A stretch of 34,841 bases of DNA from a virus (IMGVR_UViG_3300035410_000054:1-34841), one strand, 5' to 3'. Numbered from the stretch's first letter, positions 501 to 18,590 are shown. Made by a program: numbers and translations. Notes: generated from the letters alone by a model not told the origin.

Positions 501-607
501 AGCACGCACTGCTCTCGCGATCGACCTACGTCTGGTTCGGCATCGTCGCGGCGTCCGCCGTCGCGTATGCCGTCCTGGCGTGGGTCCGCGTCATGGAGGT
601 TCGATGA
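497..607 (+). CDS. Small single-pass membrane peptide (36 aa)
   Basis: A 36-residue product starting at GTG 497 inside a GTGA overlap with the preceding gene, and ending in an ATGA overlap with the following gene. It has a short basic N-terminus (VKHALLSR), then a hydrophobic segment of roughly 20 residues (VWFGIVAASAVAYAVLAWV) and a short charged end, as expected for one inner-membrane helix. Perfect stop-start coupling on both sides supports it as a real gene despite its length. It could be an accessory lysis or membrane-anchoring peptide, but nothing in the sequence proves that. Confidence 0.6.
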   Translation: MKHALLSRSTYVWFGIVAASAVAYAVLAWVRVMEVR

Positions 608-1416: not shown

Positions 1417-2009
1417 ACGAGCTTTCGCGCCACGCTGAGATCCCGGTCTCGATCATCTCGGGCACCGTCAACATCAGCGCACGGACCGACGAAGGCATCA
1501 ACATCGGGCTCCTCGTGCGTCGCGATCTCGCCGCGGCCGAAGCGCGGCGCGTTGACCGTCTCATCATGGCCGGTTCTCGGCTCCGGCCGCGAAAGGAGCA
1601 AGCAGTGGGCGATTATCGCTTCGTACTCGAGGGCATCGGCTCGCATGGGTGCAACCGCATGGGCGACTCCGGCTCCGTCGTCGCGCGGTGCGGCAACGGA
1701 TTCTGTGTCGACTGCCGCATCGCCGACTTCGTGCGCTCGTTCCAGGCGGTGCCAGGCATGGGCCTGAAGACGGCCGTGCTCGAGCACTGGCCGGTTCCGG
1801 GCGCCGCGGGCACCACGCGGACCGACAATCCGGGCCCGATCGACGATCTCGTGACCGGGACCCGTCTCGGCTCGTTCGTAACGCAGCCGTACATCTCGCC
1901 GTCTCCTGCAGCGGTTCCGGGCGCGAGCCCCACGCCGCCGGCCGGGAAGACGATCGACCAATCCGGCGACGTCGGCGCTCGCAAATGGCCCGACGACGTC
2001 AGCGCCTGA
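1413..2009 (+). CDS. Hypothetical phage protein (198 aa)
   Basis: Starts at GTG 1413 in a GTGA overlap. The first 60 residues (SIISGTVNISARTDEGINIGLLVRRDLAAAEARRVDRLI) look separate from the middle segment (FVLEGIGSHGCNRMGDSGSVVARCGNGFCVDCRIADFVRSF). That middle part contains four cysteines, C-x(n)-C-x(4)-C-x(2)-C, which might bind metal. The last 45 residues are Pro/Ala/Thr-rich and probably disordered. A second possible start, GTG 1605, is preceded by AAGGAG, so a short internal product is conceivable. Function unknown. It ends 16 bp before the methyltransferase gene. Confidence 0.6.
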   Translation: MNELSRHAEIPVSIISGTVNISARTDEGINIGLLVRRDLAAAEARRVDRLIMAGSRLRPRKEQAVGDYRFVLEGIGSHGCNRMGDSGSVVARCGNGFCVDCRIADFVRSFQAVPGMGLKTAVLEHWPVPGAAGTTRTDNPGPIDDLVTGTRLGSFVTQPYISPSPAAVPGASPTPPAGKTIDQSGDVGARKWPDDVSA

Positions 2010-2025
2010 AAAGCACGGAGGCTCA

Positions 2026-3546
2026 ATGGGCACGGGAGGAAGAAGGCGCAAGGCCGCGGCTCGCAAGAAGGCCGAGGGCCGCGCGTCCTCGAGGATTCGC
2101 GCGAATCTGAAGACGGCTAAGACGGCCCGCTCGGCGCGCCGCGGGGGAACCGCTGCCGCGGCTCCCGCCGGCGTCGCGATGCCGCCTTTCATTGCGAACA
2201 AGATCGAGCTCTGGCCGCTCGCAAAGCTCCTGCCGCTCGAGCGTAACCCGCGCATTCACTCTGATGCGGAGGTGGACGAGCTGGTCCGCGTGATCATGAC
2301 GGTGGGCTTCCTCGTGCCGTTGCTCGTGGATCTCAAAAGCCGGCGCATCCTGGCCGGGAACCGGCGGTTCGCGGCCGCGGTGAAGATCGGCATGGCGAAG
2401 GTGCCCGTCATCGTGGCCGACCATCTCTCGCCGGCGCTCCGGCAGGCGTGGATTGTCGCCGACAACGAGATCGCGCTGCACGCGACTTGGGACGAGACGA
2501 TCCTGGCCGAGTACTTCCGCGCTATCGAGCGCGCGGGCCTCGATCCGACCTTGACGTGCTTCTCGACCGACGCCATCAGCGAAATCCTCGCGTCCGTCGG
2601 CCCGCACGCGGCCCTCGAGGAGGAGGAGGAGGTCCCGCCGCTGCCGGCGAAGGCCGTATCGAAGCGCGGCGACTTGTGGGCGCTCGGCAACCATCGCGTG
2701 TTCTGTGGCGATGCGACGGTGCCCGACGACGTCCTCCGGCTTGTCGGCGGCGCCACGATGGATTGCGTCTGGACCGATCCGCCCTACGGCGTGTCCTACA
2801 AGGGCGCTGCCGGCGAGATCCAGAACGACGATCTCCCCGAGCGCGAGCTCGCCGCGATGCTGGCGGCCGCGCTCGGCGCCGCCTACGCCGTCATGCACGA
2901 GGGCGCGCCCATCTACATGGCGCACGCCGACACCGGTGGGCACATCTTCCGGCGCGTCCTCATCGAGTCGGGGTTCAAGCTGGCGAGCTGTCTCATTTGG
3001 CGGAAGAACAGCCTTGTGCTCTCGCGCGGTGATTACCACTGGCAGCACGAGCCGATTCTGTACGGATGGAAGCCCGGAAGCGCGCACCGCTGGTATGGCG
3101 ATCGCGACAAGACGTCGATTCTCGAATTCGACGACCCGCCGTTCGCCCAGGTTGCCGACGACCAGTGGCAGATCTCGCTCGGCGAGCGGACGCTCCTCGT
3201 GCGCGGGAAGGGCCTCACGGTGCAGGCGGTGCGCGGCAGCGTGCTCCTCGAGGAGAAGCCTTCCGTCAATCGCGAGCATCCGACCATGAAACCGACGCCG
3301 CTCGTGGCTCGCATGCTCGCCAACTCGACGCGGCCCGGGCACCGCGTGCTCGATATGTTCGCCGGCTCCGGCTCGACGCTCATCGCGTGCGAGTCGCGCA
3401 TGCTCATCGGCTACATGCTGGAGCTCGAGCCACGCTACGTCGACGTCATCGTGCAGCGCTGGCAGAACCTCACCGGCGGGAAGGCGACGCTCGGCTCGGG
3501 GCGGACCTTCGACCAGATCGCGACCGGCCGTAAGCGGGGCGAGTAG
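2026..3546 (+). CDS. ParB-domain / DNA adenine-or-cytosine-N4 methyltransferase fusion
   Basis: Residues 1-52 are a basic, disordered tail. Residues about 58-190 form a ParB N-terminal (Spo0J-like) domain with the conserved RILAGNRRFAAA stretch at 108-119. Residues about 215-495 form an amino-methyltransferase: DPPYG (catalytic motif IV) at 251-255 comes before the SAM-binding FAGSGST (motif I) at 445-451, which is the beta-class order. HPTMKP (419-424) is also typical. Such enzymes methylate adenine N6 or cytosine N4, and phages use them to evade restriction or mark DNA before packaging. ATG 2026 has GGAGG just upstream. It lies directly before the terminase genes, a common position in phages of GC-rich Proteobacteria. 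Target specificity cannot be read. Confidence 0.93.
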   Translation: MGTGGRRRKAAARKKAEGRASSRIRANLKTAKTARSARRGGTAAAAPAGVAMPPFIANKIELWPLAKLLPLERNPRIHSDAEVDELVRVIMTVGFLVPLLVDLKSRRILAGNRRFAAAVKIGMAKVPVIVADHLSPALRQAWIVADNEIALHATWDETILAEYFRAIERAGLDPTLTCFSTDAISEILASVGPHAALEEEEEVPPLPAKAVSKRGDLWALGNHRVFCGDATVPDDVLRLVGGATMDCVWTDPPYGVSYKGAAGEIQNDDLPERELAAMLAAALGAAYAVMHEGAPIYMAHADTGGHIFRRVLIESGFKLASCLIWRKNSLVLSRGDYHWQHEPILYGWKPGSAHRWYGDRDKTSILEFDDPPFAQVADDQWQISLGERTLLVRGKGLTVQAVRGSVLLEEKPSVNREHPTMKPTPLVARMLANSTRPGHRVLDMFAGSGSTLIACESRMLIGYMLELEPRYVDVIVQRWQNLTGGKATLGSGRTFDQIATGRKRGE

Positions 3547-3549
3547 CGC

Positions 3550-4203
3550 GTGGCAAAGAAGAAGCCGCGCGCTCCTCGAGCTCGGCAGATTCCCATCAAG
3601 GGCATCGGCGAATCGCGCCAGCTCGTGAGCGGCCGGCGGTTCGCCGAGCTCATGGGCGTCAGCGAGGCGGCGGTCCGGCGCGCGATCAAGGACGGGCGCC
3701 TAACGCCCGTGGCTCCTGGCCGCATCGATCCCGTGGCCGGCCGCCGCCAGTGGTTCGCCTCGACCGATCCGTCGAAGCCTCTTAACGCCGTCACCGGCAA
3801 TCCGTCGCACCATCGCGATCCCGGCGCGCCCGAGACGCCGATGGGTCTCGACTTCCCGATGGGAACGAACGGCGTCGACGCCGAAACCCGCGGCGCGCTC
3901 CGGCAGTTCGCCCTCGCGCGCGCGACCCGCGAGGCGATCAAGGCCCGCATCGAGCAAAAGGAATTGCAGCGCCTCGAGGGGAAGCTCATCGACGTCGACA
4001 AGGTGCGCGCCACGGCTTTCGCTCAATTCCGCCGCGCTCGGGATCTCCTGCTCACGCTGCCCGACCGGGTTTCTAAGACGATCGCCGGCGTCAGCGACGA
4101 GGCCGAGGTGTTCAGCATCGTGCAGGAGGAATGCCGTCACATTTGCGCCGAGCTCGCGCGTCCCATCGTGCCCACGCCTGACCGCGAGGACGCCGCCTCG
4201 TGA
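3550..4203 (+). CDS. Terminase small subunit (Nu1-like)
   Basis: 217 residues from GTG 3550, three bases after the methyltransferase stop. Residues about 25-60 (SGRRFAELMGVSEAAVRRAIKDGRL) form a helix-turn-helix like the excisionase/Nu1 DNA-binding fold. A long charged helix follows (ARATREAIKARIEQKELQRLEGKLIDVDKV), and then helices of the type that mediate oligomerisation and large-subunit binding in small terminases. It would recognise the packaging site and recruit the motor. GTGA coupling to the large subunit supports the call. The N-terminus is very basic (MAKKKPRAPRARQ). Confidence 0.88.
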   Translation: MAKKKPRAPRARQIPIKGIGESRQLVSGRRFAELMGVSEAAVRRAIKDGRLTPVAPGRIDPVAGRRQWFASTDPSKPLNAVTGNPSHHRDPGAPETPMGLDFPMGTNGVDAETRGALRQFALARATREAIKARIEQKELQRLEGKLIDVDKVRATAFAQFRRARDLLLTLPDRVSKTIAGVSDEAEVFSIVQEECRHICAELARPIVPTPDREDAAS

Positions 4204-6194
4204 GCGCGGACCCGGTCCTCGACGCGATCGCCCTCGCGTGGGCGCCCGATCCCATCCTCACGGTCAGCGAATGGGCCGACCAGCATCGCATGCTCTCCTC
4301 GAAATCGGCATCCGAGCCGGGCCCCTGGCGCACCTCTCGCGTGCCCTATCTCCGCGAGATCATGGACGCGCTCTCGAGCGGCTCGCCCGTGCGGAAAATC
4401 GTGTTCATGAAGGGCTCGCAGATCGGCGCGACCGAGTGCGGGAACAACTGGATCGGCTACGCGATGCAGCATTCGCCCGGGCCCATGATGTTGATCGAGC
4501 CGACGCTCGACACTTGCAAGAAGATCAGCCAGGAGCGAATCGCGCCCATGATCGCCGAGGCGCCGGCGCTGGCCGCGATCGTTTCCGAGCCGCGCTCCCG
4601 CACCTCGGGGAACACGCTCCTGCGGAAGGACTTTCCCGGCGGCGTGCTCTACATGGCCGGAGCCAATTCCGGCGCGGGCCTTCGTATGGTCCCTGTCGGA
4701 AAACTGTTCGCCGACGAAATCGACGAGTACCCGGGCGACGTGAACAACCAGGGCTCGCCGCTCGAGCTCGCCGTGCGCCGCACCAGTAACTTCCCGCGCC
4801 GGAAAATCTATTTCGCCTCGACGCCGACGGTGCGCGGGCTCTCGAACATCGAGAAGGAGTTTCGGCGCACCGACCAGCGCCGCTACTTCGTGCCCTGCCC
4901 GGAATGCGCGCACATGGACTACCTCACATGGGACGGCCGCGACTGGTTCGAGGCGTCCGCCGGCATCCACTTCCGCGTCGAATGGGAGACCGATCAGCCC
5001 GACACCGCCCGGCTTGTCTGCCCGGCTTGCGCGGCGCGCGTGCCCGAGTCGGCGAAGCGCGGCATGCTGGCGGCCGGCGCGTGGCGCTCGACCGTGGAAT
5101 GCGACGAGCCCGGCTTGCGCGGCTACCATCTGTCCGGGCTCTACTCTCCCTGGCAGTCGTGGGGGGAGTCGGCGCGCCTGTTCATGCACGCGAAGGCGAA
5201 CCCGGGCGACTTGAAGGTGTGGGTCAACACGACGCTCGGCGAAAGCTGGGAGGAGCGCGGAACCAGGGTCGACGCCGACGTGCTCATGGCGCGCCGGGAG
5301 CCGCCGCTCCTCAAGACCTATGGCGACGAGCAGGCCGAGGTGCCGGCCGGCGTGGGCATCCTCGTGGCATCGGTCGACGTCCAGGCCGATCGCCTCGAGG
5401 CGCTCGTGCTCGGCTATGGCGCCGGCGAGGAATGCTGGGTGATCGCGCATTCGCAATTTGCGGGCGACCCGGGCCGCGTCGACGCCTCTCCCGGCGAGCG
5501 CACCGTCTGGATGGATCTCGACCGCTTCCTCGTGGACCAGTTCCTGCACGAGAGCGGGCAGCGCGTCTCGATCGCGTGCGTTGTCATCGACGCCCGCTAT
5601 CACACGAACGAGGTCTACCGGTTCTGCAGCGCTCGCTCTCACCGCCGGCTCACTTGGAAAGAGGGTCCGCCGGCGACGCAGCTTGTGTTCCCTGTCATGG
5701 GAACCAGCGTCGACGGCCGCGAGATCGTGCTCAAGCCATCCGTGAAGAACCGCTACGGCGTGAAGGTGTTTCCGCTCGGCACCGACGCGGCGAAGGACAC
5801 GATCTATTCGCGGCTCCGCATCGCGGGCCCAGGCCCGGGTTTCTACCATCTCCCGCACTGGGTCGATAAGGAATTCGTGGACCAGCTCACCGCCGAAAAG
5901 GCGATTCGGAAATGGATTCCCCGCAAGGGCTGGACGCGCGTCTGGGAGAAGGTGCGCGATCGTAACGAGGTGCTCGACCTTGCGGTGTACGGTCTCGCCT
6001 CTCTCGGCATCATGGGTTCGGGCCTCGTGCGCTCCCTGGCCGAGCGCGCGGCGAAATGGGCGGCGCCGGCGTCCTCGCCGGCGGCCGGCGCGCCGGAGTC
6101 TCCGCAGGCCGCGGCCGCGCTCGAGGGCGAGGGCGTGGCTCCGTCCGGTCCGCCCAGGCGCCCGCGTAAGGGCTGGCTCGACTCGTGGCGCTAG
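4200..6194 (+). CDS. terL: Terminase large subunit, GpA family
   Basis: 664 residues, the usual length for lambda gpA-type packaging motors. The ATPase domain has a Walker A variant KGSQIGAT at 71-78, a Walker B with catalytic acids in KLFADEIDEY (168-177) and motif III STP at 207-209. A zinc-ribbon-like insertion supplies C233/C236 and C274/C277. The nuclease domain begins near 388 (ILVASVDVQADRLEA, with D393 and D397). Further acids are D464 (VVIDARYH) and the C-terminal NEVLDLAVYGLAS helix. It translocates DNA into the prohead at the portal and cuts it. It starts at GTG 4200, overlapping the small subunit stop. The last 50 residues are Ala/Pro-rich and basic, possibly contacting the portal. 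Confidence 0.96.
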   Translation: MSADPVLDAIALAWAPDPILTVSEWADQHRMLSSKSASEPGPWRTSRVPYLREIMDALSSGSPVRKIVFMKGSQIGATECGNNWIGYAMQHSPGPMMLIEPTLDTCKKISQERIAPMIAEAPALAAIVSEPRSRTSGNTLLRKDFPGGVLYMAGANSGAGLRMVPVGKLFADEIDEYPGDVNNQGSPLELAVRRTSNFPRRKIYFASTPTVRGLSNIEKEFRRTDQRRYFVPCPECAHMDYLTWDGRDWFEASAGIHFRVEWETDQPDTARLVCPACAARVPESAKRGMLAAGAWRSTVECDEPGLRGYHLSGLYSPWQSWGESARLFMHAKANPGDLKVWVNTTLGESWEERGTRVDADVLMARREPPLLKTYGDEQAEVPAGVGILVASVDVQADRLEALVLGYGAGEECWVIAHSQFAGDPGRVDASPGERTVWMDLDRFLVDQFLHESGQRVSIACVVIDARYHTNEVYRFCSARSHRRLTWKEGPPATQLVFPVMGTSVDGREIVLKPSVKNRYGVKVFPLGTDAAKDTIYSRLRIAGPGPGFYHLPHWVDKEFVDQLTAEKAIRKWIPRKGWTRVWEKVRDRNEVLDLAVYGLASLGIMGSGLVRSLAERAAKWAAPASSPAAGAPESPQAAAALEGEGVAPSGPPRRPRKGWLDSWR

Positions 6195-6373
6195 CGCCCG
6201 ACGCCGGAGGCTTCCAACCCGCTCTCTACGGTGAAGGCCCCGTCGCCGTGCGCGTGGCGCTGTCCGCCTGTTTCGCCGATCCCGCGTGGGACCCGACCGC
6301 GCCGCCGCTCGAGGCCGCCTTCCCCATCCTCGCGAAGCTGGGGCTCCTCGGGCCGCCGCCTTCCCGCAACTAG
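6185..6373 (+). CDS. Small hypothetical protein after terminase (62 aa)
   Basis: Starts at GTG 6185, ten bases before the end of the terminase gene, with AAGGG upstream, so translation is probably coupled. The sequence is Ala/Pro-rich with a central amphipathic stretch (VAVRVALSACFADPAWDP) and a helix near the end (AAFPILAKLGLLG). In lambda the head-tail joiner gpW sits at this place, but I see no gpW signature. It is the last gene before the first palindromic promoter. Function unknown. Confidence 0.5.
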   Translation: MALAPDAGGFQPALYGEGPVAVRVALSACFADPAWDPTAPPLEAAFPILAKLGLLGPPPSRN

Positions 6374-6418
6374 GCCCCAAACCGGGCCTTACGGGGCCCA
6401 AAAGAAAGTTTGAGAAAC

Positions 6419-6436
6419 CGCTTGACCGGTCAAGCG
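6419..6436. promoter_or_regulatory. Palindromic operator O1
   Basis: Perfect 18-bp palindrome CGCTTGACCGGTCAAGCG that contains the -35 hexamer of the promoter. The same 18 bp recur at 8805 and the 14-bp core recurs at 10153, each time in the same register with a -35 box. A dimeric repressor or activator binding here would directly control polymerase. No candidate repressor gene is identified with certainty in the window. Confidence 0.8.
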
Positions 6437-6450
6437 TTCTATCCGATACT
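6422..6450 (+). promoter_or_regulatory. Promoter P1 of small-gene operon 1
   Basis: The -35 TTGACC (6422-6427) is separated by exactly 17 bp from the -10 GATACT (6445-6450). An A-rich stretch (AAAAGAAAG and GAGAAA) lies upstream like an UP element, and this is strikingly AT-rich for the window. The predicted start of transcription is near 6457, which is the first base of the leader hairpin. It drives 6497-8733. Confidence 0.75.
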
Positions 6451-6456
6451 CTCTTT

Positions 6457-6475
6457 GTCGGGCACGGGGCCCGGC
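6457..6475 (+). promoter_or_regulatory. 5' leader hairpin, copy 1
   Basis: Inverted repeat GTCGGGC / GCCCGGC around the loop ACGGG, giving seven pairs with one G-U, located where the transcript should begin. It is followed by CAAAAC and then the SD CGGAGG. An identical copy lies at 8843. It may stabilise the mRNA 5' end or bind a regulator. Confidence 0.65.
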
Positions 6476-6496
6476 AAAACGACTCGGAGGCTTCAG

Positions 6497-6952
6497 ATGG
6501 TCCTCGCCGGAAACGACGCCCGCATCCTCGCCCGCGCTCGCGCGGAATTCGATGCTGCCCAGCAGGGTCTCTCTCGCGTCATGGGCGACAAGCTCATGGC
6601 CGATCGCTTCGGCGGCGTCGCTGCCGCGAACGAGGCCAGCGAGCTCCTCGAGCTGGTCGACGAAACGCACGCGGTGTTTCAGCTCATGCTCGCCGCTGCC
6701 CAGCGCATCGAGGCGCTCGAAAACAAGTACGAGCTGCCGAACAACAAGCTGACGGTGACCGATCGCGTCACCGGTCTCGCCCAGGGCGACGTCGCCGTCG
6801 ACTGGCAGATCACGGATGGCCGGATCGACTTTCTCCCGGCGCAGTGCGCCGGCTGCTCCAACAAGCTCGCCGCCGCCATCGTGCCCTACTGCTCCTCGTG
6901 TTGCCGCGAGGGCGTTCCCGCCGGCGCCGTCGTCGCCAAGAGGAGCCGCTAA
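6497..6952 (+). CDS. Hypothetical protein with C-terminal zinc-binding cysteines (151 aa)
   Basis: First gene of operon 1; ATG 6497 has CGGAGG (6485-6490) upstream. The N-terminal two thirds are helical (ILARARAEFDAAQQG, ASELLELVDETHAVFQLM, AAAQRIEALENKYEL), so a coiled-coil or helical bundle is likely. The end carries CAGCSNKL followed about ten residues later by CSSCC, two CxxC pairs that would hold one zinc ion. It was probably expressed early because it follows promoter P1. The stop overlaps the next start (TAATG). No family recognised. Confidence 0.75.
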   Translation: MVLAGNDARILARARAEFDAAQQGLSRVMGDKLMADRFGGVAAANEASELLELVDETHAVFQLMLAAAQRIEALENKYELPNNKLTVTDRVTGLAQGDVAVDWQITDGRIDFLPAQCAGCSNKLAAAIVPYCSSCCREGVPAGAVVAKRSR

Positions 6953-7431
6953 TGCCTCTGCGCGGAAACGACTCGCCGGCCCGTCATTCGCAGCCGCACG
7001 ATCCGTCGAACCATTGCGATGCTTCCTGTTCCGCTTTCGTCTCGCGCGGCTGGCTCGTGCTGGACGCTCGCTCGCCGGCGTCGCCGGTTGTCGTTCATGC
7101 CGACTTTGAGGCGGTAGCTCGCCGCTGCGCCGAGTACTACGGCGCCGGCTCCTACGTCACCCACGGCGGCGCGCTCCTCGTGAAGGCGCCTCTCCTGCTC
7201 CAGGCGCTGAAGGTGGTAATCGACCATCTCCCCGCGTGCGACGGCCACGAATTCGGCCCGTGCGCGCGGTGTGTTGCCCAGGCCGCGATCGATTCGGTCT
7301 CGCCGCTCGAGCGCCTCTGCCCAGATTGCGGCGCGACTGCCATCGCCGCCGAGGCGCCGCGTTGTGTCGCCTGCAACGACTCGCTGTTCGCGGCGCGCCT
7401 CGCGCGCGCGCGCGATCTCGGGAGGGCCTAA
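6952..7431 (+). CDS. Hypothetical protein with zinc-ribbon-like C-terminus (159 aa)
   Basis: Starts at ATG 6952, which shares its A with the preceding TAA. The middle is a small alpha/beta region (GWLVLDARSPASPVVVHADFEAVARRCAEYYGAGSYVTHGG). The C-terminal third has cysteine pairs CARC, CPDC and CVAC, the last two (LCPDCGATAIAAEAPRCVACND) forming a typical zinc ribbon. The N-terminus is His/Cys-rich (HCDASCSAF). It ends in GRA encoded by a GGGAGGGCC box that doubles as the SD of the next gene. Likely a small regulatory or host-interaction protein; function unknown. Confidence 0.72.
   Translation: MPLRGNDSPARHSQPHDPSNHCDASCSAFVSRGWLVLDARSPASPVVVHADFEAVARRCAEYYGAGSYVTHGGALLVKAPLLLQALKVVIDHLPACDGHEFGPCARCVAQAAIDSVSPLERLCPDCGATAIAAEAPRCVACNDSLFAARLARARDLGRA
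7417..7431 (+). repeat. 15-bp SD/stop coupling repeat, copy 1
   Basis: CTCGGGAGGGCCTAA occurs here and again at 7575-7589. In both places it encodes the last residues (GRA), supplies the Shine-Dalgarno sequence and contains the stop codon next to the following ATG. Confidence 0.6.
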
Positions 7432-7589
7432 TGGCAAGCGTGATCCTGGCCGTCCGCCTGAATCGTTACGCCGCCGGGCGCTGGACCGTTCGCGTCCTGT
7501 TCGCCAATGGCTCCTCGCGCGAATCGCAGCTCGTTACCTACCAGCAGGCGGCATGGATGCGTCGCCGCCTGCTCCTCGGGAGGGCCTAA
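7431..7589 (+). CDS. Hypothetical small basic protein (52 aa)
   Basis: Starts at ATG 7431 in a TAATG overlap, with GGAGGG six bases upstream. The product is short and basic with a beta-strand-like core (VILAVRLNRYAAGRWTVRVLFANGSS) and an Arg-rich end (AAWMRRRLLLGRA). Its size and tight coupling on both sides are the main evidence. Function unknown. Confidence 0.6.
   Translation: MASVILAVRLNRYAAGRWTVRVLFANGSSRESQLVTYQQAAWMRRRLLLGRA
7575..7589 (+). repeat. 15-bp SD/stop coupling repeat, copy 2
   Basis: Second copy of CTCGGGAGGGCCTAA; see 7417. It lies immediately before the ATG at 7590. Confidence 0.6.
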
Positions 7590-7907
7590 ATGAATCCCGT
7601 CCACATCCTCCGCGCCGTTGCCGAGACCGACTTCCGTCCGTTCACTGATTCGGACTATCAGACCTTCGGCAACGTCTCTCCGGCCTCGCGCCCGCTGATC
7701 GGCGAATGGGGCGAGCACATGATCATCATCTCGGGCGTCGAGGTTCGCATGGTGTTCTGTCCCGACTTGTCGGCGCCCGAGGAAATCGGGCCGTGCATTC
7801 TCGGCTGGGCCCCAGGCGTCGACGTTCAGAATCCCTACCGCCGGCAGGTGGGCGAGCCCGGCTGCGTCCACGGGGCTCCGGGCGGCCTGACCGGCGGTGC
7901 GCGATGA
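7590..7907 (+). CDS. Hypothetical protein (105 aa)
   Basis: Starts at ATG 7590 directly after the previous stop with a GGGAGGG SD. Acidic, with a strand-rich centre (HMIIISGVEVRMVFCPD) and the segment IGPCILGWAPGVDVQNPYRRQ. It ends in a Gly-rich tail and overlaps the next gene by ATGA. No known motif or family; the position inside a cassette of tiny phage genes suggests an accessory role. Confidence 0.65.
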   Translation: MNPVHILRAVAETDFRPFTDSDYQTFGNVSPASRPLIGEWGEHMIIISGVEVRMVFCPDLSAPEEIGPCILGWAPGVDVQNPYRRQVGEPGCVHGAPGGLTGGAR

Positions 7908-8332
7908 CGCGCCAGTTCCGCGGCCTGCGCCGCCCGGCGAAGCCCCACAACGTGAACGCCGGCTACGTTTGCGAGCGCAAGGTGCGCCACGCCGTGGGCG
8001 GGCACGTTGTCGTCTACGATCGGATGCGCGGCTTCGAATGCGACGCCGACCATCGCTGGATTGTCATGCACGAGCCTTCGTCGCTGCACCTCTCGTTCGT
8101 CTCGCGCGCCGCCGCTATCGAATTCATGAAGGAGGCCGCCGCCGAGTACGCCGGCGGCGTCGAAATCTTCCCGCAGCCCGGGACGGAGGCCGCGGCTCGC
8201 GCCGAGCGCACCGCTCGTGGCATCGCGGCTCTCAACCAGAAGCGTATGGACGCGGGGCACTGCCGCCACTGCGATGGTCCGGTTCCCTGCCCGTCCGCCT
8301 TCGGCGATATCGAAATCGGGAGGTCACGATGA
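7904..8332 (+). CDS. Hypothetical protein with C-terminal cysteine cluster (142 aa)
   Basis: Begins at ATG 7904 in an ATGA overlap. A basic start (TRQFRGLRRPAKPHNVNAG) is followed by a compact alpha/beta domain (WIVMHEPSSLHLSFVSRAAAIEFMKEAAAEYAGGVEIFP) that resembles small phage proteins with a two-strand, one-helix layout. Near the end HCRHCDGPVPC could bind zinc. AAIEFMKEAAA is an obvious helix. The stop overlaps the next start. Function unknown. Confidence 0.68.
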   Translation: MTRQFRGLRRPAKPHNVNAGYVCERKVRHAVGGHVVVYDRMRGFECDADHRWIVMHEPSSLHLSFVSRAAAIEFMKEAAAEYAGGVEIFPQPGTEAAARAERTARGIAALNQKRMDAGHCRHCDGPVPCPSAFGDIEIGRSR

Positions 8333-8733
8333 ATTGGTACCGTCCGACCTATGTCGTCGACGTCATGGTGCGCGGCCGCTGGTCTCTGTCCTTCCGCTCG
8401 CCGGCGCGCGCCGAGGCCGCGGCTCGCTTCGCGGTCGAAAAGCAGCGCCTCGAGGTCGCCGGGCTCCTGCTCTGGCTCGACCGGCCCGGGCAGCCCTCGC
8501 AGCTCCTGCTCTCGTGGTATCCCGAGCCCGGCCGGCGCCGCTGGTTCTCCGGCCGGCCCGGGGAGCCGACGCCGGCCCTACGGGGCTTCGAGCGCCGGGT
8601 CCTTCTCCTATCCCGCCCGGAGGCCCGCTCGGGTCTCAGGCGGGCCCTGGCGGGCCTACGATGGCTCGTGGGCGACGTCCGCCGCGCATGGAAAGGAGGG
8701 GTCCGCCTCCGGGGCGGACGTGCGGGCTGGTAA
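8329..8733 (+). CDS. Hypothetical basic protein (134 aa)
   Basis: Last gene of operon 1, ATG 8329 in an ATGA overlap with a GGGAGG SD. The first 60 residues look folded (WYRPTYVVDVMVRGRWSLSF, then helix RAEAAARFAVEKQRLEVAG). The remainder is very Arg/Gly/Pro-rich (RRALAGLRWLVGDVRRAWKGG), either disordered or nucleic-acid binding. A terminator follows about 20 bp after the stop. No family recognised; the C-terminal part may be low-quality coding. Confidence 0.62.
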   Translation: MNWYRPTYVVDVMVRGRWSLSFRSPARAEAAARFAVEKQRLEVAGLLLWLDRPGQPSQLLLSWYPEPGRRRWFSGRPGEPTPALRGFERRVLLLSRPEARSGLRRALAGLRWLVGDVRRAWKGGVRLRGGRAGW

Positions 8734-8753
8734 TCCCCGTTATCCGGCCGGCC

Positions 8754-8791
8754 GGGGCCTCGGGGCTTGCGCTCCGGGGCCCTCTCTCTTT
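8754..8791 (+). terminator. Rho-independent terminator of operon 1
   Basis: The stem GGGGCCTCGGGGC pairs with GCTCCGGGGCCCT around a TTGC tetraloop (12-13 pairs with few G-U wobbles), followed by a TCTCTCTTT pyrimidine run. It sits between the end of operon 1 and the palindrome of promoter P2, so the two units are insulated. Confidence 0.8.
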
Positions 8792-8804
8792 GCCCAAAAG
8801 AAAC

Positions 8805-8822
8805 CGCTTGACCGGTCAAGCG
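8805..8822. promoter_or_regulatory. Palindromic operator O2
   Basis: Perfect 18-bp palindrome identical to that at 6419 (CGCTTGACCGGTCAAGCG), again covering the -35 hexamer. Preceded by the same GCCCAAAAGAAA sequence that flanks O1. Confidence 0.8.
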
Positions 8823-8836
8823 TTCTATCGTACATT
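8808..8836 (+). promoter_or_regulatory. Promoter P2 of small-gene operon 2
   Basis: The -35 TTGACC (8808-8813), a 17-bp spacer and the -10 TACATT (8831-8836). The spacer start is shared with P1, but the -10 region differs, so the identical palindrome and downstream hairpin are not just a recent copy. Drives 8880-10147. Confidence 0.75.
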
Positions 8837-8842
8837 CCTTGT

Positions 8843-8861
8843 GTCGGGCACGGGGCCCGGC
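8843..8861 (+). promoter_or_regulatory. 5' leader hairpin, copy 2
   Basis: Same GTCGGGC-ACGGG-GCCCGGC hairpin as at 6457, identical in stem, loop and flanking T and CAAAA. The SD AGGAGG (8868-8873) follows immediately. Confidence 0.65.
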
Positions 8862-8879
8862 AAAAGCAGGAGGCTCCAA

Positions 8880-9179
8880 ATGGTTCGTCGCTCGAACGCC
8901 TCGCTCATCCGCTTCGCGAACGATCACGACGCCCGCTTCGTGGCGAACGTGATCATCTGTCACCACTCCAATGCGAACCGCAAGCTCCGCGGCCTCTGCA
9001 ATCTTCTCGAGCTCGGCGTCTCCGTCTCGCTGCGCTCCTCCATCGATGATCTCGTGATCGATGGCGACACGGCGGCGTGGCAGACGCTCGAAACGGCCGC
9101 CGCGATGCCGTTCGCTCAAATGCTGGGGCGCATCGCCGCCGCCCGCTCCGCGTCCGCCCAGCCAGGAGGCGTCTCGTGA
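8880..9179 (+). CDS. Hypothetical protein (99 aa), first gene of operon 2
   Basis: ATG 8880 has AGGAGG seven bases upstream, within the leader shared with operon 1. The product is predominantly helical (SLIRFANDHDARFVANVIICHH, LRGLCNLLELGVSVSLRSSIDDLVI, then AWQTLETAAAMPFAQMLGRIAAARS). It is not clearly homologous to the first gene of operon 1 although both begin MV. Last four bases overlap the next GTG start. Function unknown. Confidence 0.68.
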   Translation: MVRRSNASLIRFANDHDARFVANVIICHHSNANRKLRGLCNLLELGVSVSLRSSIDDLVIDGDTAAWQTLETAAAMPFAQMLGRIAAARSASAQPGGVS

Positions 9180-9373
9180 GCGCCGCCCGCATCAAGGCGA
9201 CGGGCGCTTGGATTGTGTTCCCGACCATGCGCGCAGCCCGGGCTTTCGCTGTCGGCTATTGCGTCCCTCGCGTCATCGTCCGTCTCAGGCGCGGCCGGTT
9301 CGCCATCGTCTCGCCGGCGACGGCCGGCCGCCGCGGCCTTCGGGTGCTCGCCTCGTTCGGGGGGAAATCATGA
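9176..9373 (+). CDS. Hypothetical basic protein (65 aa)
   Basis: GTG 9176 in a GTGA overlap, with CAGGAGGC upstream. A short alpha/beta protein: strand WIVFPTM, helix RAARAFAVGYC, strands VIVRLRRGRFAIVSP, basic throughout. It might form a small nucleic-acid-binding fold, but no motif settles it. Ends in an ATGA overlap. Confidence 0.62.
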   Translation: MSAARIKATGAWIVFPTMRAARAFAVGYCVPRVIVRLRRGRFAIVSPATAGRRGLRVLASFGGKS

Positions 9374-9582
9374 CCTACCGTCAAGTCGGCGGAATCCCGT
9401 TCCGCTGGTCCGATGCTCCCGGCGCCTGTTTGTGGTGCGGCGATCCCGTGCTCGTGTACGGGAAGCGCTGGCTCATGGGCCGGTTCTGCACGCTGAAATG
9501 CGCGGCCTCGTTCGGCGTGTTCCATGCGAACGCCGGCTACCGAATCGAACGCGAGAATGAAACCCACAAGGAGGCAATGTGA
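9370..9582 (+). CDS. Small treble-clef-type zinc finger protein (70 aa)
   Basis: ATG 9370 in an ATGA overlap, preceded by GGGGAAA. It contains GACLWCGDPVLVYGKRW followed by GRFCTLKCAASF. The arrangement C-x2-C, a beta hairpin, then C-x3-C at the start of a helix is the layout of small treble-clef or zinc-ribbon proteins of phages. Such proteins bind DNA, RNA or protein partners. Partner unknown. Confidence 0.72.
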   Translation: MTYRQVGGIPFRWSDAPGACLWCGDPVLVYGKRWLMGRFCTLKCAASFGVFHANAGYRIERENETHKEAM

Positions 9583-9917
9583 ACCGCTCGACGATCCACC
9601 ACGGCACCACGAAGGACTGCCCGACGCCCTCTCCGAGCGGCGCCTGCCCTGGACACGACGCGACTCCTCTCTCAGCCCGTCTCGCCGCCCTGACCGAGGC
9701 GGTGGTCGACGCCGCGCGCGCCGTGGCTTGCGCCGGCGCCGGCCGCGTCAGCGCCGCTCAGTGGGTAGCGCTGTCCGCGGCGCTCGCCGCGCTCGATGCC
9801 ACGATGCCGTGCGCGCATCCTCTCGACGCCCGGCAATCGCGCGGGTACGCGCCCGGTCAATTGTGCGGGCTCTGCGGGCTCTATCTTCGGGGCGCGGGCT
9901 CCTCGAGCGCCTCGTGA
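9579..9917 (+). CDS. Hypothetical Ala-rich protein with Cys/His cluster (112 aa)
   Basis: GTG 9579 lies in an ATGTGA junction with GGAGG seven bases upstream. A Cys/His-containing start (KDCPTPSPSGACPGHD) is followed by an Ala-rich helical middle and a CAHPLDARQSRGYAPGQLCGLCG end with C, H and a CxxC pair. The C-H-CxxC end could bind zinc. GTGA overlap with the next gene. No family recognised. Confidence 0.64.
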   Translation: MNRSTIHHGTTKDCPTPSPSGACPGHDATPLSARLAALTEAVVDAARAVACAGAGRVSAAQWVALSAALAALDATMPCAHPLDARQSRGYAPGQLCGLCGLYLRGAGSSSAS

Positions 9918-10147
9918 AGCCGGCCTCCGTCGTGACGCGATCGCTCGTGCTCGCGAAGGACCGCGATCGCTCGGGGAAGCCCTTTCAGTGGGCCTGCAAA
10001 TGCGGGAAGCCGGCGCCGTTCGTCTACCGGTGGACCCAGCGGTGGGCCTCGGGTGCGACCGTCCGCCGCTTCCGCGACGTCTGCCCGGGCTGCGCCGGCG
10101 TGCTCGCCGAGCTGCACGGCCTCGAGGTCCCGGCGGTGCCGTCGTGA
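9914..10147 (+). CDS. Small zinc-ribbon protein (77 aa)
   Basis: GTG 9914 in a GTGA overlap; last gene of operon 2. Contains WACKCGKPAPFVYRW and, 25 residues later, RDVCPGCAGVLAELHG: two CxxC-type pairs (CKC, CPGC) that make a classic four-Cys ribbon. The N-terminus is basic. Promoter P3 starts six bases after the stop, and no terminator separates operons 2 and 3. Confidence 0.68.
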   Translation: MKPASVVTRSLVLAKDRDRSGKPFQWACKCGKPAPFVYRWTQRWASGATVRRFRDVCPGCAGVLAELHGLEVPAVPS

Positions 10148-10152
10148 AGGCC

Positions 10153-10166
10153 CTTGACCGGTCAAG
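10153..10166. promoter_or_regulatory. Palindromic operator O3 (14-bp core)
   Basis: CTTGACCGGTCAAG, the core of O1 and O2, in the same position relative to the -35 box. The outer two pairs of the 18-bp palindrome are lost on the left side, which could mean weaker binding and different timing. Confidence 0.72.
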
Positions 10167-10182
10167 CGGCCTCGGGCATCCT
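10154..10182 (+). promoter_or_regulatory. Promoter P3 of small-gene operon 3
   Basis: The -35 TTGACC (10154-10159), 17-bp spacer, weak -10 CATCCT (10177-10182; three of six consensus bases). It is likely weaker than P1 and P2 or dependent on an activator. Drives 10207-13575. Confidence 0.6.
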
Positions 10183-10184
10183 CT

Positions 10185-10202
10185 CTCCCCGGAAAGGGGG
10201 AG
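10185..10202 (+). promoter_or_regulatory. 5' leader hairpin of operon 3, overlapping the SD
   Basis: CTCCCC pairs with GGGGAG around GGAAAG, at the same distance from the promoter as the other leader hairpins but unrelated in sequence. The 3' arm is part of the SD (GGGGGAGG, 10196-10203) of the next gene, so the hairpin could hide the ribosome binding site. Confidence 0.5.
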
Positions 10203-10206
10203 GACG

Positions 10207-10353
10207 ATGACCGGCCGTTCGGAACGCCACACGGGCCTCGAGCGCGCAATGCTCACCCTGGCTCTGCTCCTCGCTGCGCTCGCCGCGACGCCCTGGCTTC
10301 TCGGCCTCGTGCGCTCGCTCCTGAATCGGCTTTTCGTCTCTCTCGGAGGGTAA
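10207..10353 (+). CDS. Small single-pass membrane protein (48 aa)
   Basis: ATG 10207 with the strong SD GGGGGAGG. A polar start (MTGRSERHTGLERA) is followed by a hydrophobic helix (MLTLALLLAALAATPWLLGLV) and a basic amphipathic tail (RSLLNRLFVSLGG). Likely an inner-membrane protein with the C-terminus on the positive side. In phages such peptides act in superinfection exclusion, lysis control or host membrane takeover; which applies here is not visible. Confidence 0.66.
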   Translation: MTGRSERHTGLERAMLTLALLLAALAATPWLLGLVRSLLNRLFVSLGG

Positions 10354-10354
10354 C

Positions 10355-10762
10355 GTGCCCGACACGACGGTCAGCGATGCCGCTCGGCTCATGGGCCGCC
10401 GCGGTGGTCTCAAGGGCGGGCGCGCGCGCGCGGACAAGCTCTCGCCGCGCCGGCGCTCGGCGATCGCCCGGCTCGGCGCCGAAAAGGTGAACGCGGCCCT
10501 GGCCGAGCTCGAGCCCGAGGCGCGCGCCAGCATCATCATGCGGAAGCGCACCTACAGCTCCTACCTCGACGGCCGCCGCTGGTCCGGGCGCGATATCAAC
10601 CCGTACAAGGCCCGCGGCTTCCAGGCCGCGCTCCGTCTCGCGTGGCTCATCGGTGACCGCGAGGTAGCCGCCGGCGCCTCGCATCCTGTCACGTTCACGC
10701 GCTGGCTCTGGCCGCTCACTCCTCGTGATCGCCGGCGCCGCTTCCTCGAGGAGGACAAGTGA
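10355..10762 (+). CDS. Hypothetical basic protein (135 aa)
   Basis: GTG 10355 with GGAGGG upstream. The N-terminus AARLMGRRGGLKGGRARADKLSPRRRSAIARLGAEK matches a widespread short motif (GRxGGxKGGxARAxxLSPxxR) found in small proteins and in antitoxin-like or DNA-associated proteins. The middle and end (YLDGRRWSGRDINPYKARGFQAALRLAWLIG) are rich in aromatic and basic residues. GTGA overlap with the next gene. Function unknown. Confidence 0.65.
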   Translation: MPDTTVSDAARLMGRRGGLKGGRARADKLSPRRRSAIARLGAEKVNAALAELEPEARASIIMRKRTYSSYLDGRRWSGRDINPYKARGFQAALRLAWLIGDREVAAGASHPVTFTRWLWPLTPRDRRRRFLEEDK

Positions 10763-11211
10763 CCGACGATAACGAGCCCGTCACGCTCGAGCATTCGATC
10801 CTCGTGCGCTGTCTCGGCGTCGCGGCTCGCGCCTCGAAACACCCGGCGCGCCTCGAGCGCATCTTCTCCGTCGTGCTCTCGGAGGTCGACGAGAAGGCCG
10901 AGGGGCTCGTGGGTCAGGCGACGCTGCGCGACGTCCCGCACGAGATCGCGAAGCGCCTGTCCGAGGGGCTGTCCCGCAATCTCAAGTACCGGCTTTCCTT
11001 CTCGCTCGAGGCGCTGCCCGATCCGCAGCAGGATCTGTTCCGCTCCTCGACGCGCACCGATCTCCCGGTCGACTTCGAAGGCAAGAAGGCCAGCTCGATC
11101 GAGACCGTCACGATCTCAAGCCCGGGTCTCGGCTCCGTCACCACGACGCCGGCGGGCCTCGAGCGCGCGGCGCAGGCGGTGCGACGCCGGCGGAAGGAGA
11201 TCGAGCAGTGA
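10759..11211 (+). CDS. Hypothetical helical protein (150 aa)
   Basis: GTG 10759 in a GTGA overlap with GAGGA upstream. The first 90 residues are helical and acidic (LEHSILVRCLGVAARASKHPARLERIFSVVLSEVDEKAEG). Then a strand-containing part with SSIETVTISSPGLGSVTTTP and a basic helix end (AAQAVRRRRKEIEQ). No recognised motif. Tight coupling to both neighbours supports it as a gene. Confidence 0.65.
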   Translation: MTDDNEPVTLEHSILVRCLGVAARASKHPARLERIFSVVLSEVDEKAEGLVGQATLRDVPHEIAKRLSEGLSRNLKYRLSFSLEALPDPQQDLFRSSTRTDLPVDFEGKKASSIETVTISSPGLGSVTTTPAGLERAAQAVRRRRKEIEQ

Positions 11212-11444
11212 CCCCCGGCGACGGCTACCGCGATGCCGGCCGGCTGGCCGAGCGCACGGGCAAGCTACCGGCCGCGAACCCGCACGATCCTCTCAGCGAT
11301 GCCGGCCGGGCATGGGACGAGGGTTTCCTCTCATCGCGTCTGCGCTCCGCAGATCCCACTGTTCTCCGGCGCGCGATGAACGCGCTACGGTACTTCCCGC
11401 TCGACCGAATCCTGGCCGAGCACGCCACAAAGGAGGGCTCATGA
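11208..11444 (+). CDS. Hypothetical protein (78 aa)
   Basis: GTG 11208 in a GTGA overlap, preceded by AAGGAG. Contains PLSDAGRAWDEGFLSSRLRSAD followed by a helical end. The pattern (small residues, W-D/E-x-G-F) is shared with the next gene (ADEWWAWERGFVRQRIAG), suggesting the two are distant paralogues or partners. Function unknown. Confidence 0.62.
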   Translation: MTPGDGYRDAGRLAERTGKLPAANPHDPLSDAGRAWDEGFLSSRLRSADPTVLRRAMNALRYFPLDRILAEHATKEGS

Positions 11445-11641
11445 AGAAGCTGGTTCCCATCCTGCCCTTCGATCCCGCGCTCGCCGCGGCTCAGGAGAAT
11501 GGCGCGGCCGCGGCTCGCGCCGGCGCCGGGCTGGACGCGAATCCCTACCCCGTGCTCGCCGACGAATGGTGGGCCTGGGAGCGCGGCTTCGTCCGCCAGC
11601 GCATCGCCGGGATCTCCAATGACGCCCAGCGTTCAGCGTAG
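11441..11641 (+). CDS. Hypothetical protein (66 aa), possible paralogue of the preceding gene
   Basis: ATG 11441 in an ATGA overlap with the SD AGGAGGG. Short protein with the segment NPYPVLADEWWAWERGFVRQRIAG, matching the pattern of the previous product (NPHDPLSDAGRAWDEGFLSSRLRS): N-P-x-x-x-L-x-D, then W-x-x-G-F. This looks like a short conserved module for binding a common partner. Its end overlaps the lipoprotein gene by 23 bases. Confidence 0.64.
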   Translation: MKKLVPILPFDPALAAAQENGAAAARAGAGLDANPYPVLADEWWAWERGFVRQRIAGISNDAQRSA

Positions 11642-12131
11642 GGGCGCGGGCTGGCGGGCCCTTGCGGCGAGTGTCTTGGCGCTCGCTCTCGGCGCTTGCG
11701 GCGGCCGAAGCACGGTACTGTCGGCTCCGCGCCCTCTGTACCTCCGGCCCTCTCCCGACGTCGCGGTCGATACGATCAGCGGCCGCTACTCCGGCTACGC
11801 CGCGTCGTCGCTCGCCTGGATTGGAAACGACAGCTTGTGGTTCGAGCAGGATCTCCTCGTGTTCTACAAACCGATGCCGCGCGGCCAATGGATCGGCTAT
11901 TCGGCCTACGGCTCGTTCGTGGGCGCGCTAACGGACACGGCGCTTGCGCTTGTGTTCTCGCTCGGGGAGAGCGGCGCGCCCTTTCCCGACTCGCTCGGCG
12001 TCATATCGGGCGGCGCAACATGGAGGCGCGTGGGCGATTCCCTGTACGTCGAGCCGCGGCTTTCGATCGCCGGCGGCTCCTGGCCGGCGCAGACCGCGCT
12101 CTCCTTCGCGGCGCTCGAGCGTGAGCGGTGA
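11619..12131 (+). CDS. Putative lipoprotein (170 aa)
   Basis: Residues 1-27 form a bacterial lipoprotein signal: basic QRRGAGWR, hydrophobic ALAASVLALALGA and lipobox L24-G25-A26-C27. The mature part is 144 residues, strand-rich, with many aromatic residues (WIGNDSLWFEQDLLVFYKPMPRGQW). ATG 11619 lies inside the end of the previous gene. A secreted, lipid-anchored product among phage accessory genes is typical of a moron (surface change or superinfection exclusion) or of a spanin subunit, although it is long for an outer-membrane spanin and no partner with a membrane anchor adjoins it. I favour superinfection exclusion as an inference only. Confidence 0.7.
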   Translation: MTPSVQRRGAGWRALAASVLALALGACGGRSTVLSAPRPLYLRPSPDVAVDTISGRYSGYAASSLAWIGNDSLWFEQDLLVFYKPMPRGQWIGYSAYGSFVGALTDTALALVFSLGESGAPFPDSLGVISGGATWRRVGDSLYVEPRLSIAGGSWPAQTALSFAALERER

Positions 12132-12340
12132 AGCGCGAGAACAACAAGGCCCGAATCCTGGCATGGCTGTCCGACGGGCGCCGGCATCACATGAGCGAGC
12201 TCCTCGAGGTGGGCGGCTACCGCTACAGCGCCCGGATCTACGAATTGCGGAAAGAGGGATTCGACATCGAGACGCTGCAGGTGGGAGACGACGAATTCGC
12301 GTACCGGCTTCGCGCCGGTCAAGGGGAGCTCGCGCTATGA
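12128..12340 (+). CDS. Small winged helix-turn-helix protein (70 aa)
   Basis: GTG 12128 in a GTGA overlap. The whole protein matches a minimal winged helix: KARILAWLSDGRRHHMSELLE (helices 1-2), YRYSARIYELRKEG (recognition helix) and FDIETLQVGDDEFAYRL (wing). Similar 70-residue proteins are common in phages and are thought to regulate transcription or DNA transactions. It is a candidate binder of the palindromic operators, but the pattern alone does not prove DNA specificity. Confidence 0.75.
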   Translation: MKRENNKARILAWLSDGRRHHMSELLEVGGYRYSARIYELRKEGFDIETLQVGDDEFAYRLRAGQGELAL

Positions 12341-12777
12341 AACGGAGGCCGGCTATGGGCAGGCAGAAGCAGCAGGACCGCGCGTATCGGAAGGCGGCCG
12401 CGACGTTCAAGGCAGCCGAGGCGCTGAGGATGAAGCCGGCGACGCTGCAGTCGCGCGTGACCGCTCTCGAGGCCGAGCTCGTGGCGACACGCCGACTGGC
12501 CGGCGACGCATTCGCTCGAATCCAGAAGCTCGAGCTCTCGCCGCTGAAGGAGGTCATGGCCGATCCGCTCGAGGAGGTGCGCCGCGGGCTGCGCGCTCTC
12601 AGAAACAAGAACGTCGCCGTGCTCCTCGGGCCGCATACGATCTCCGTCGTACCTTCCGCCGGGATCTCTCCGGCAGTGGCTCTGCCCACCGAACCGTTCT
12701 CGGCAAACTACGACGATCGCCAAGCCGCGTCCGCGGTGCGCGAGGCGATCTCGATGCTTGCGCGTCTCAGCCAGTAG
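12337..12777 (+). CDS. Hypothetical coiled-coil protein (146 aa)
   Basis: ATG 12337 in an ATGA overlap. A basic N-terminus (MKRRPAMGRQKQQDRAYRKAA) leads into a long helix with heptad spacing (LQSRVTALEAELVATRRLAGDAFARIQKLE), likely a coiled-coil dimer. The C-terminal part (VLLGPHTISVVPSAGISPAV and a final helix SAVREAISMLARL) is less defined. The opening could also be read as a DNA-binding region. Function unknown. Confidence 0.65.
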   Translation: MKRRPAMGRQKQQDRAYRKAAATFKAAEALRMKPATLQSRVTALEAELVATRRLAGDAFARIQKLELSPLKEVMADPLEEVRRGLRALRNKNVAVLLGPHTISVVPSAGISPAVALPTEPFSANYDDRQAASAVREAISMLARLSQ

Positions 12778-13575
12778 GTGAAGCACCGCTGTCCGCGCTG
12801 CGGCGCCGAATGCACCGGGGCCCAGCTCGTGCTCGGGCCTCGACGCTGGGTCCGCCCGCTTGCAGCGCCCGACCGCGGTGCATGGTGCGCGGTGCTCTCA
12901 TGTCTCTCACTCGCCCTCTGGCAAGCTGTCACAGAATGGGCCGGGCATCCTGGCATCGTGAGTCGATACGATCGCTGCACCGACCACGCGCTCGCCTTCG
13001 CTCTGCGCTGGCGTCTCGACGTGTACGGGCTCACGAGTGATCGCCCTTCGGGGCCGGAGGCGCCACGGACGGCGCGAAAGGGAACCGCTCTCATGAACCT
13101 CATCGAGTTCAACGGCGACACCGAAATCATCCACTCCGAGCATCCGAGCGAGCAGGCGCTGAAGCTCGAGGTGACCGGCGTGGCGACCATTCAGAGCCCG
13201 GACGATCCGAACGCGACCATGAAGGTGCCGGCGTCTCTCACGATCGAATACCCAGGCGACGGCACGACCGCGCCGCCGCGCCCGATCGGAACCGCGGGCG
13301 ACGTTGTCACGCAGCCGAACAGCCACTACCGCCTCGAGCGAAAGGACGAGACGGCGCCGGCGCTCCTCGACGACTTCAGCGGGCTGCTCTCGGCGCACTA
13401 CGACGCTGCGAAGAATCAGGACAACTACGAAGGCGGCGGCCGCGACAACGATCGCGCGTATGCGATCTCGAGCACGCGGAACGGCCGGACGGTCTCGCTC
13501 CGTCTGTTCTACGCGACGACGGCCGGCGTGCGCGGCGATAACAACGTGATGGCCGCGCTGCGAAACTCCGGCTAG
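12778..13575 (+). CDS. Hypothetical protein, start uncertain (265 aa or 160 aa)
   Basis: From GTG 12778, directly after the preceding stop, the frame is open to 13575. The N-terminus HRCPRCGAEC looks like a zinc ribbon. The stretch at about 12900-12975 has poor third-position GC compared with neighbours, and its residues look unconstrained. A second start, ATG 13093 with AAAGGGA about ten bases upstream, would give 160 residues: MNLIEFNGDTEI, a strand-rich part (QALKLEVTGVATI, KVPASLTIEY) and SHYRLERKDETAPALLDDFSG. The 160-residue version is probably the main folded protein. Last gene of operon 3; function unknown. Confidence 0.5.
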   Translation: MKHRCPRCGAECTGAQLVLGPRRWVRPLAAPDRGAWCAVLSCLSLALWQAVTEWAGHPGIVSRYDRCTDHALAFALRWRLDVYGLTSDRPSGPEAPRTARKGTALMNLIEFNGDTEIIHSEHPSEQALKLEVTGVATIQSPDDPNATMKVPASLTIEYPGDGTTAPPRPIGTAGDVVTQPNSHYRLERKDETAPALLDDFSGLLSAHYDAAKNQDNYEGGGRDNDRAYAISSTRNGRTVSLRLFYATTAGVRGDNNVMAALRNSG

Positions 13576-13638
13576 CTCGGCGCTGGAATCTGTCGGCCGC
13601 TTCCTGTAGGCTCTGTTCTCGCCCAACGGACGGGGCGA

Positions 13639-13746
13639 TCCTGGCTTCCCGGCTCGGCTTGTGGTCCCGGGCCTGCCGGGCTCTCCCAGGAAAAGAGCGA
13701 AGGAGCGGCAAGGGCCCCGAGGTTCGCCTCGGGGCCCTCTCTTTTT
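13639..13746 (+). ncRNA. Candidate structured non-coding RNA
   Basis: The 235 bp between 13575 and 13810 has no gene. It contains nested pairing: TCCTGG (13639-13644) with CCAGGA (13686-13691), inside it CCCGGC (13648-13653) with GCCGGG (13675-13680), then an A/G-rich single-stranded linker and the terminator. This is the layout of a small regulatory RNA or a processed 3' end of the operon 3 transcript. No convincing promoter is visible directly upstream. Confidence 0.35.
13711..13746 (+). terminator. Strong rho-independent terminator after operon 3
   Basis: Perfect 12-bp stem AGGGCCCCGAGG / CCTCGGGGCCCT with a TTCG tetraloop, followed by CTCTTTTT. It stops plus-strand transcripts before they run antisense into the inverted portal gene. 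On the minus strand the stem is followed by a T-run only some 20 bases later, so it is weaker in that direction. Confidence 0.9.
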
Positions 13747-13809
13747 CGGTTCCCGGGCTTCCACACAGCCCCGTGCTGGGGCGATCGCCGGGTCCCGCGG
13801 CTCTCGGGT

Positions 13810-16025: not shown

Positions 16026-16044
16026 GGCGCGGGTATCGTCGCGC

Positions 16045-16081
16045 GTGGAGACGCGCTCCCGCCATTCGCTTTTGTCTCCAC
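16045..16081. promoter_or_regulatory. Inverted repeat in the divergent promoter region
   Basis: GTGGAGAC (16045-16052) and GTCTCCAC (16074-16081) are a perfect 8-bp inverted repeat 21 bp apart, in the only divergent intergenic space of the window (16026-16142). It could be an operator controlling both the portal pair and the head-spike genes. The space also contains a TCTCCCCGGAGGC stretch carrying the SD of the next gene; no strong -35/-10 pair is seen. Confidence 0.4.
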
Positions 16082-16424: not shown

Positions 16425-16428
16425 GAAC

Positions 16429-18587: not shown

Positions 18588-18590
18588 ACC

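Follow-up and report, generated by a model that had tools for sequence, protein, structure and literature searches.

The window, meaning the whole stretch of DNA analysed here, is an entire IMG/VR virus record (34,841 bp, linear, 67.8% GC) and is probably an incomplete fragment. It carries lambda-type terminase (GpA_ATPase + GpA_nuclease), portal, capsid and tail genes. The terL gene ends at 6194 and the leftward portal gene occupies 13810-15480; between them lie about 20 small rightward genes, arranged in three blocks together with the following features.

6419-6436, no strand assigned: predicted operator 1, perfect 18-bp palindrome CGCTTGACCGGTCAAGCG, overlapping the -35 box
6422-6450, plus strand: predicted promoter P1, TTGACC - 17 bp - GATACT, with orthologous promoters in the relatives G011 and G012
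6457-6475, plus strand: predicted 5' hairpin of P1 (7 bp, loop ACGGG), which begins with the predicted +1
6497-8733, plus strand: block 1, six small genes (6497-6952, 6952-7431, 7431-7589, 7590-7907, 7904-8332, 8329-8733)
8754-8783, plus strand: terminator-like intrinsic hairpin of 13 pairs, closing block 1
8805-8822, no strand assigned: predicted operator 2, the same perfect 18-bp palindrome as operator 1
8808-8836, plus strand: predicted promoter P2, TTGACC - 17 bp - TACATT
8843-8861, plus strand: predicted 5' hairpin of P2, again from the predicted +1 onwards and identical to the P1 hairpin
8880-10147, plus strand: block 2, five small genes (8880-9179, 9176-9373, 9370-9582, 9579-9917, 9914-10147)
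10151-10168, no strand assigned: predicted operator 3, 17/18 copy CCCTTGACCGGTCAAGCG, 3 nt past the stop codon at 10145-10147
10154-10182, plus strand: putative weak promoter P3, TTGACC - 17 bp - CATCCT (3/6)
10184-10203, plus strand: hairpin near site 3, taking in the Shine-Dalgarno sequence GGGGGAGG of gene 10207
10207-13575, plus strand: block 3, about nine genes (10207-10353, 10355-10762, 10759-11211, 11208-11444, 11441-11641, 11619-12131, 12128-12340, 12355-12777, 12778-13575)
13711-13738, no strand assigned: strong terminator-like hairpin separating block 3 from the leftward portal gene

The count of six, five and nine genes agrees with the figure of about twenty given in the preliminary description. 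The products tested from the small genes between terL and portal gave no family of known function except a weak HTH_39 match at 12128. Genes 1 and 2 of block 1 encode proteins with Cys-rich, zinc-ribbon-like ends; the products of genes 1, 2 (in part, from 7057), 4 and 5 of this block have no notable PHROG, Pfam or NCBIfam match, and a search of viral contigs gave no relatives for the proteins encoded at 6497 and 10759. In block 3, the lipoprotein-like gene 11619-12131 precedes the HTH_39 gene at 12128-12340; its product has a signal-peptide-like start and, by eye, a lipobox-like LGAC, which makes it a candidate lipoprotein and possibly a surface or exclusion protein.

Two further traits of the neighbourhood were recorded. 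The portal and head-tail connector genes (13810-16025, minus strand) are inverted with respect to the terminase and capsid genes, as they are in G011 and G020 and not in G012, G018 and G007, and the hairpin at 13711-13738 sits where the two transcription directions meet. Beside the terminase genes, 2026-3546 encodes an N6/N4 DNA methyltransferase fused to a ParB N-terminal domain; relatives of this fusion occur in G012, G018 and G007.

A mismatch search of the whole window confirms the palindrome at 6419 and 8805 and its 14-bp core at the third site, where the perfect core spans 10153-10166. Allowing up to three mismatches to the 18-mer, only these three matches are found, against 0.05 expected from shuffles. 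All three are intergenic although non-coding sequence makes up 4.2% of the window, and a check for copies scattered in coding sequence found none there. A 14-bp palindrome present three times arises in 2 of 300 Markov-simulated windows. Independence of the three placements is not supported. Sites 1 and 2 belong to a single duplicated promoter/leader block (6413-6479 and 8799-8865, 90% identical), which continues upstream with a 10-nt gap to about 70-84 nt in all. They are consequently not independent trials, and the phage effectively has two independent operator placements. The two copies of the block agree fully over 25 nt on the operator side, made up of the operator and the next 7 nt, and over 24 nt on the +1 hairpin side; the intervening 12 nt of the -10/start stretch differ at 7 positions.

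The register of the -35 box was examined at each site. TTGACC lies at 6422, 8808 and 10154 and is followed exactly 17 bp later by GATACT, TACATT and CATCCT, respectively, and a consensus scan of positions 1-20000 returns only two sigma-70-like matches, namely sites 1 and 2. Hexamers as good as GATACT or TACATT (at least 4/6 like TATAAT) occupy 0.6% of positions, and the occurrence of both at exactly 17 bp is notable. Hexamers as good as CATCCT (3/6) occupy 5.4% of positions; the third -10 box is therefore at chance level and not significant. The earlier assignment of TTGACC as a -35 box at three promoters thus stands for the spacing at all three sites and is convincing at P1 and P2, while the -10 box of P3 does not bear it out. 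Because site 3 follows the stop codon of block 2 by 3 nt with no terminator after the last gene of that block, it may act as an internal promoter of a single long operon or may not be a promoter.

A different function for the palindrome, as an RNA or terminator element, has to be weighed at this point. The sequence can fold as RNA, and the consensus scan scores the minus strand at 8822-8805 as terminator-like, as would suit a minus-strand terminator made of CGCTTGACCGGTCAAGCG followed by GTTTCTTTTG. Such a role is highly improbable, given that no T-run follows the palindrome at site 3, that no leftward genes are called near sites 1-3, that the leftward portal operon is already ended by the hairpin at 13711-13738, and that a -35 box stands in register inside the palindrome at every site.

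If transcription starts 7 nt past the -10 box, the RNAs of P1 and P2 open with GUCGGGCACGGGGCCCGGCAAAA, which forms a 7-bp hairpin from the first nucleotide. Among random positions, about 2% have a stem of 7 bp or more that begins no further than 3 nt away. The 5' leaders alone give weak shuffle z-scores (-0.75 and -1.4), and the argument relies instead on the position at +1 and the presence of such leaders in relatives: by itself the hairpin would be a modest observation, and its recurrence makes it credible. Near site 3, the hairpin at 10184-10203 could form in read-through RNA and largely not in RNA started at P3, from which most of its 5' arm would be absent; as a consequence, gene 10207 might be translated better from P3 RNA than from read-through RNA.

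Relatives were sought with terL, the capsid and the tail-tip protein. The phages found are diverged (about 50% identical terminase or capsid), and no phage nearly identical to positions 1-25000 of the window is present in the phage collection. Three of them, G011, G012 and G020, are partly or largely syntenic with the window. In G012, terL is directly followed by TTGATC-17-GATACT and then a hairpin leader, together with an imperfect palindrome, CAGCTTGATCGTTCTAGCTG, centred exactly as the window operator (8/10 pairs, P about 0.001 for a fixed centre) and identical to the window site at 13 of 18 positions. At the same place, in an alignment made by eye, G011 has TTTACT-17-GATACT and a 7-bp leader hairpin, with no palindrome. 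G020 carries a perfect 21-bp palindrome with 10-bp arms, ATGCTTGCTCCGAGCAAGCAT, over the -35 box of TTGCTC-17-TATTGT before a RadC-like gene; since this gene does not directly follow terL, the arrangement is a parallel case and not an orthologous promoter. No such promoter was seen after terL in more distant terL relatives. The orthologous promoters, observed directly, and the hairpin at the predicted +1 strengthen the promoter reading. A promoter with a hairpin leader is thus common to three phages (the window, G011 and G012), and a palindrome over a predicted -35 box is present in three of four (absent from G011), its sequence differing between them; the 12-bp core of the window palindrome was not found in the relatives, which speaks against the operator reading.

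These comparisons bear on the view that P1 and P2 are ordinary promoters whose -35 box lies by chance in a palindrome copied once, site 3 being a functionless remnant. That sites 1 and 2 derive from one duplication suits this view, as does the same promoter without a palindrome in G011, which would also speak against the operator reading. It is nonetheless improbable: both copies retain perfect 18-bp symmetry, in contrast to the -10 region, which has drifted, and an imperfect palindrome with the same centre occurs in G012 and an independent one in G020.

Other repeated elements were noted in the relatives. In G020 (L212:10160-10180), between the divergent connector and the next gene, the palindrome CATTCTAGTTTTACTAGAATG is found with a TAGAAT -10-like hexamer on both strands. 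Two terminase relatives, L072 (3142, 9022, 10313, 10782) and L070 (7378, 7950, 8055), have a repeated box resembling GGGAGATCGTCGCTCA in gaps between genes, which is different from the window palindrome.

Across 2.9 million viral contigs, the 14-bp core occurs in 65 stretches, and no other record has the arrangement of the window. The best look-alike, on a 68% GC phage contig (L044:2546-2559, CTTGACCGGTCAAG with TTGACC-17-TAAAGT), is a single copy upstream of a 148-aa gene and may be due to chance; it was discarded as one match among about 130 orientations, which is not significant. A palindrome of about 34-36 bp around CTTGACCGGTCAAG occurs on another contig (L034:1425-1460), just after a terminase-like and before a portal-like gene. 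Apart from G012, a pair of degenerate promoter scans across the viral contigs gave only unrelated or AT-rich contigs. On L223 (5635-5692), a promoter-like stretch lies between two identical GCTTGAACGCTCAAGC inverted repeats and precedes a small basic gene, 5457-5657 on the minus strand, which resembles the N-terminus of window gene 10355.

Binding of the palindrome by a host regulator would have precedent, as phages sometimes exploit host repressors such as LexA. In 84,980 bacterial and archaeal species genomes (257 Gb), however, the exact 18-mer has 5 matches, a chance-level number; four lie inside ORFs by ORF calling and the fifth (L099) apparently does so, judged from local sequence inspection only, so that none was seen in a promoter. 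For this reason the 18-mer is unlikely to be a conserved host operator, unless the host group is unsampled, and a host protein is a very doubtful candidate.

Synteny with the relatives indicates where a phage-encoded regulator could lie. Near-identical 154-bp repeats at the two ends of G011 (42,543 bp; repeats 97% identical) make its genome probably complete. From the tail-tip gene to the terminase small subunit, G011 measures about 8.4 kb vs 3.8 kb in the window, from which it follows that the contig probably lacks some 4-5 kb between its ends. The segment of G011 that matches this gap encodes a small HTH_3-like protein (below the cut-off) and, judged by eye, RusA-like and replication-like proteins; that of G020 has genes for an integrase, for a ParB protein and for two small HTH-like proteins. 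The regulator is probably encoded by the phage within these missing 4-5 kb, as far as synteny can indicate. The incomplete window record yielded no cognate repressor gene, in line with the earlier remark that the regulator is not obvious there, and neither an integrase nor a CI-like gene turned up in the window. Early or lysogenic control of the blocks is plausible.

The preliminary description had named the winged-helix protein encoded at 12128 as one candidate. A Pfam HTH_39 match just above the cut-off (E=8e-5) and the location of the gene in block 3, inside the putative regulon, would fit a regulator feeding back on its own operon. The match is weak and short, being best over 23 residues; the single-sequence structure model is poor (mean pLDDT 61.5), sequenced phages contain no relative of the protein, and G012 and G020, both of which have palindromes over promoters, gave no HTH_39 match. 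The protein is a weak candidate and very unlikely to be the regulator.

A ParB/KorB-type regulator is a more specific proposal, and one that is a special case of the operator/repressor reading, so that the confidences expressed here are not exclusive. KorB/ParB regulators have palindromic sites at promoters, ParB-family proteins bind palindromes of 13-16 bp, and KorB is an established repressor. The window likewise has palindromic sites at promoters, and a full ParB_N + HTH_ParB protein is encoded by all three relatives that keep the small-gene block between terL and portal (G011, G012 and G020); in G012 its gene is part of the block that follows the orthologous operator. Such a protein could bind the palindrome in a KorB- or parS-like manner and repress or silence the blocks. 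In contrast to these systems, the available window has only the ParB_N-methyltransferase fusion and no HTH_ParB protein. In addition, G011 has the ParB protein yet no palindrome at the orthologous promoter, and the ParB genes of G011 and G012 lie outside the segment missing from the window, only that of G020 being in the post-tail region. A ParB-type regulator is thus unlikely. In its fullest form, the proposal would have a stand-alone ParB/KorB-like protein, without a ParA partner, silence the blocks through palindromes over conserved hairpin-leader promoters, with diverging operators giving phage-specific immunity; this is rather unlikely.

The best explanation, to which a probability of about two in three is assigned, is that the palindromes are operators of one phage-encoded dimeric repressor, placed over promoters with hairpin leaders, from which the blocks of small genes are transcribed. 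Observed directly are the sites, their placement and the duplication: three copies, intergenic and at block starts of non-structural genes, overlapping promoter elements at P1 and P2 and, at the third, a weak one. The original proposal of a shared dimer-type operator heading the gene blocks holds over the -35 box of at least two convincing promoters and loses ground in the strength of the third. In the operator/repressor reading, a repressor dimer would cover the -35 box of P1 and of P2, blocking host sigma-70 RNA polymerase there; its effect at P3 would be to shut off a weak internal promoter, to form a roadblock, or both. About 20 small non-structural genes would then be shut down together, in lysogeny or as early shut-off. 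Once repression is lifted, P1 and P2 would give mRNAs with a hairpin at the 5' end, which would probably stabilise them. Protein binding, repression, its timing and the identity of the regulator are what we infer.

By analogy, the set of palindromes appears to match in kind the known dispersed-operator phages, such as those with cluster A operators/stoperators (PMC9283540) and phiC31 with its inverted repeats. In phage L5 and cluster A, one repressor acts at near-identical sites in promoters and short intergenic gaps, silencing many genes (PMC9283540, PMC6550527); the L5 sites are 13-bp, asymmetric, monomer-bound and present in more than 20 genome copies (PMC9283540). The window shares the near-identical sites in promoter regions and gaps and, as predicted here, joint silencing. 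Unlike L5, it has three symmetric sites of 14-18 bp, and a perfect palindrome in three copies differs from the 13-bp asymmetric stoperators, with more than 20 copies oriented with transcription. In cluster K mycobacteriophages, the SAS/ESAS elements are repeated upstream elements that precede many small genes and combine inverted repeats with a conserved motif, the ESAS consisting of paired 17-bp inverted repeats, imperfect and with a spacer that varies, close to the 13-bp SAS (PMC3203893, PMC12699233). The resemblance lies in repeated upstream inverted-repeat elements before small genes, whereas the window has one compact palindrome over the -35 box and a hairpin at +1. The conserved inverted repeats of phiC31 lie near early promoters and are bound by the phage repressor, and the c1 operators of phage P1 form a further comparable dispersed-operator system. 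Inverted repeats at promoters are shared with phiC31; the sequence, copy number and host differ, and no phiC31-like repressor was seen in the window.

Collectively, the operator/repressor reading would tie about twenty small genes to one switch and offers a concrete, testable control circuit for an uncultured group of high-GC phages in which the small genes are nearly all uncharacterised. The comparison between phages suggests that the promoter and its hairpin leader are stable while the operator changes, the pattern to be expected if superinfection immunity evolves.
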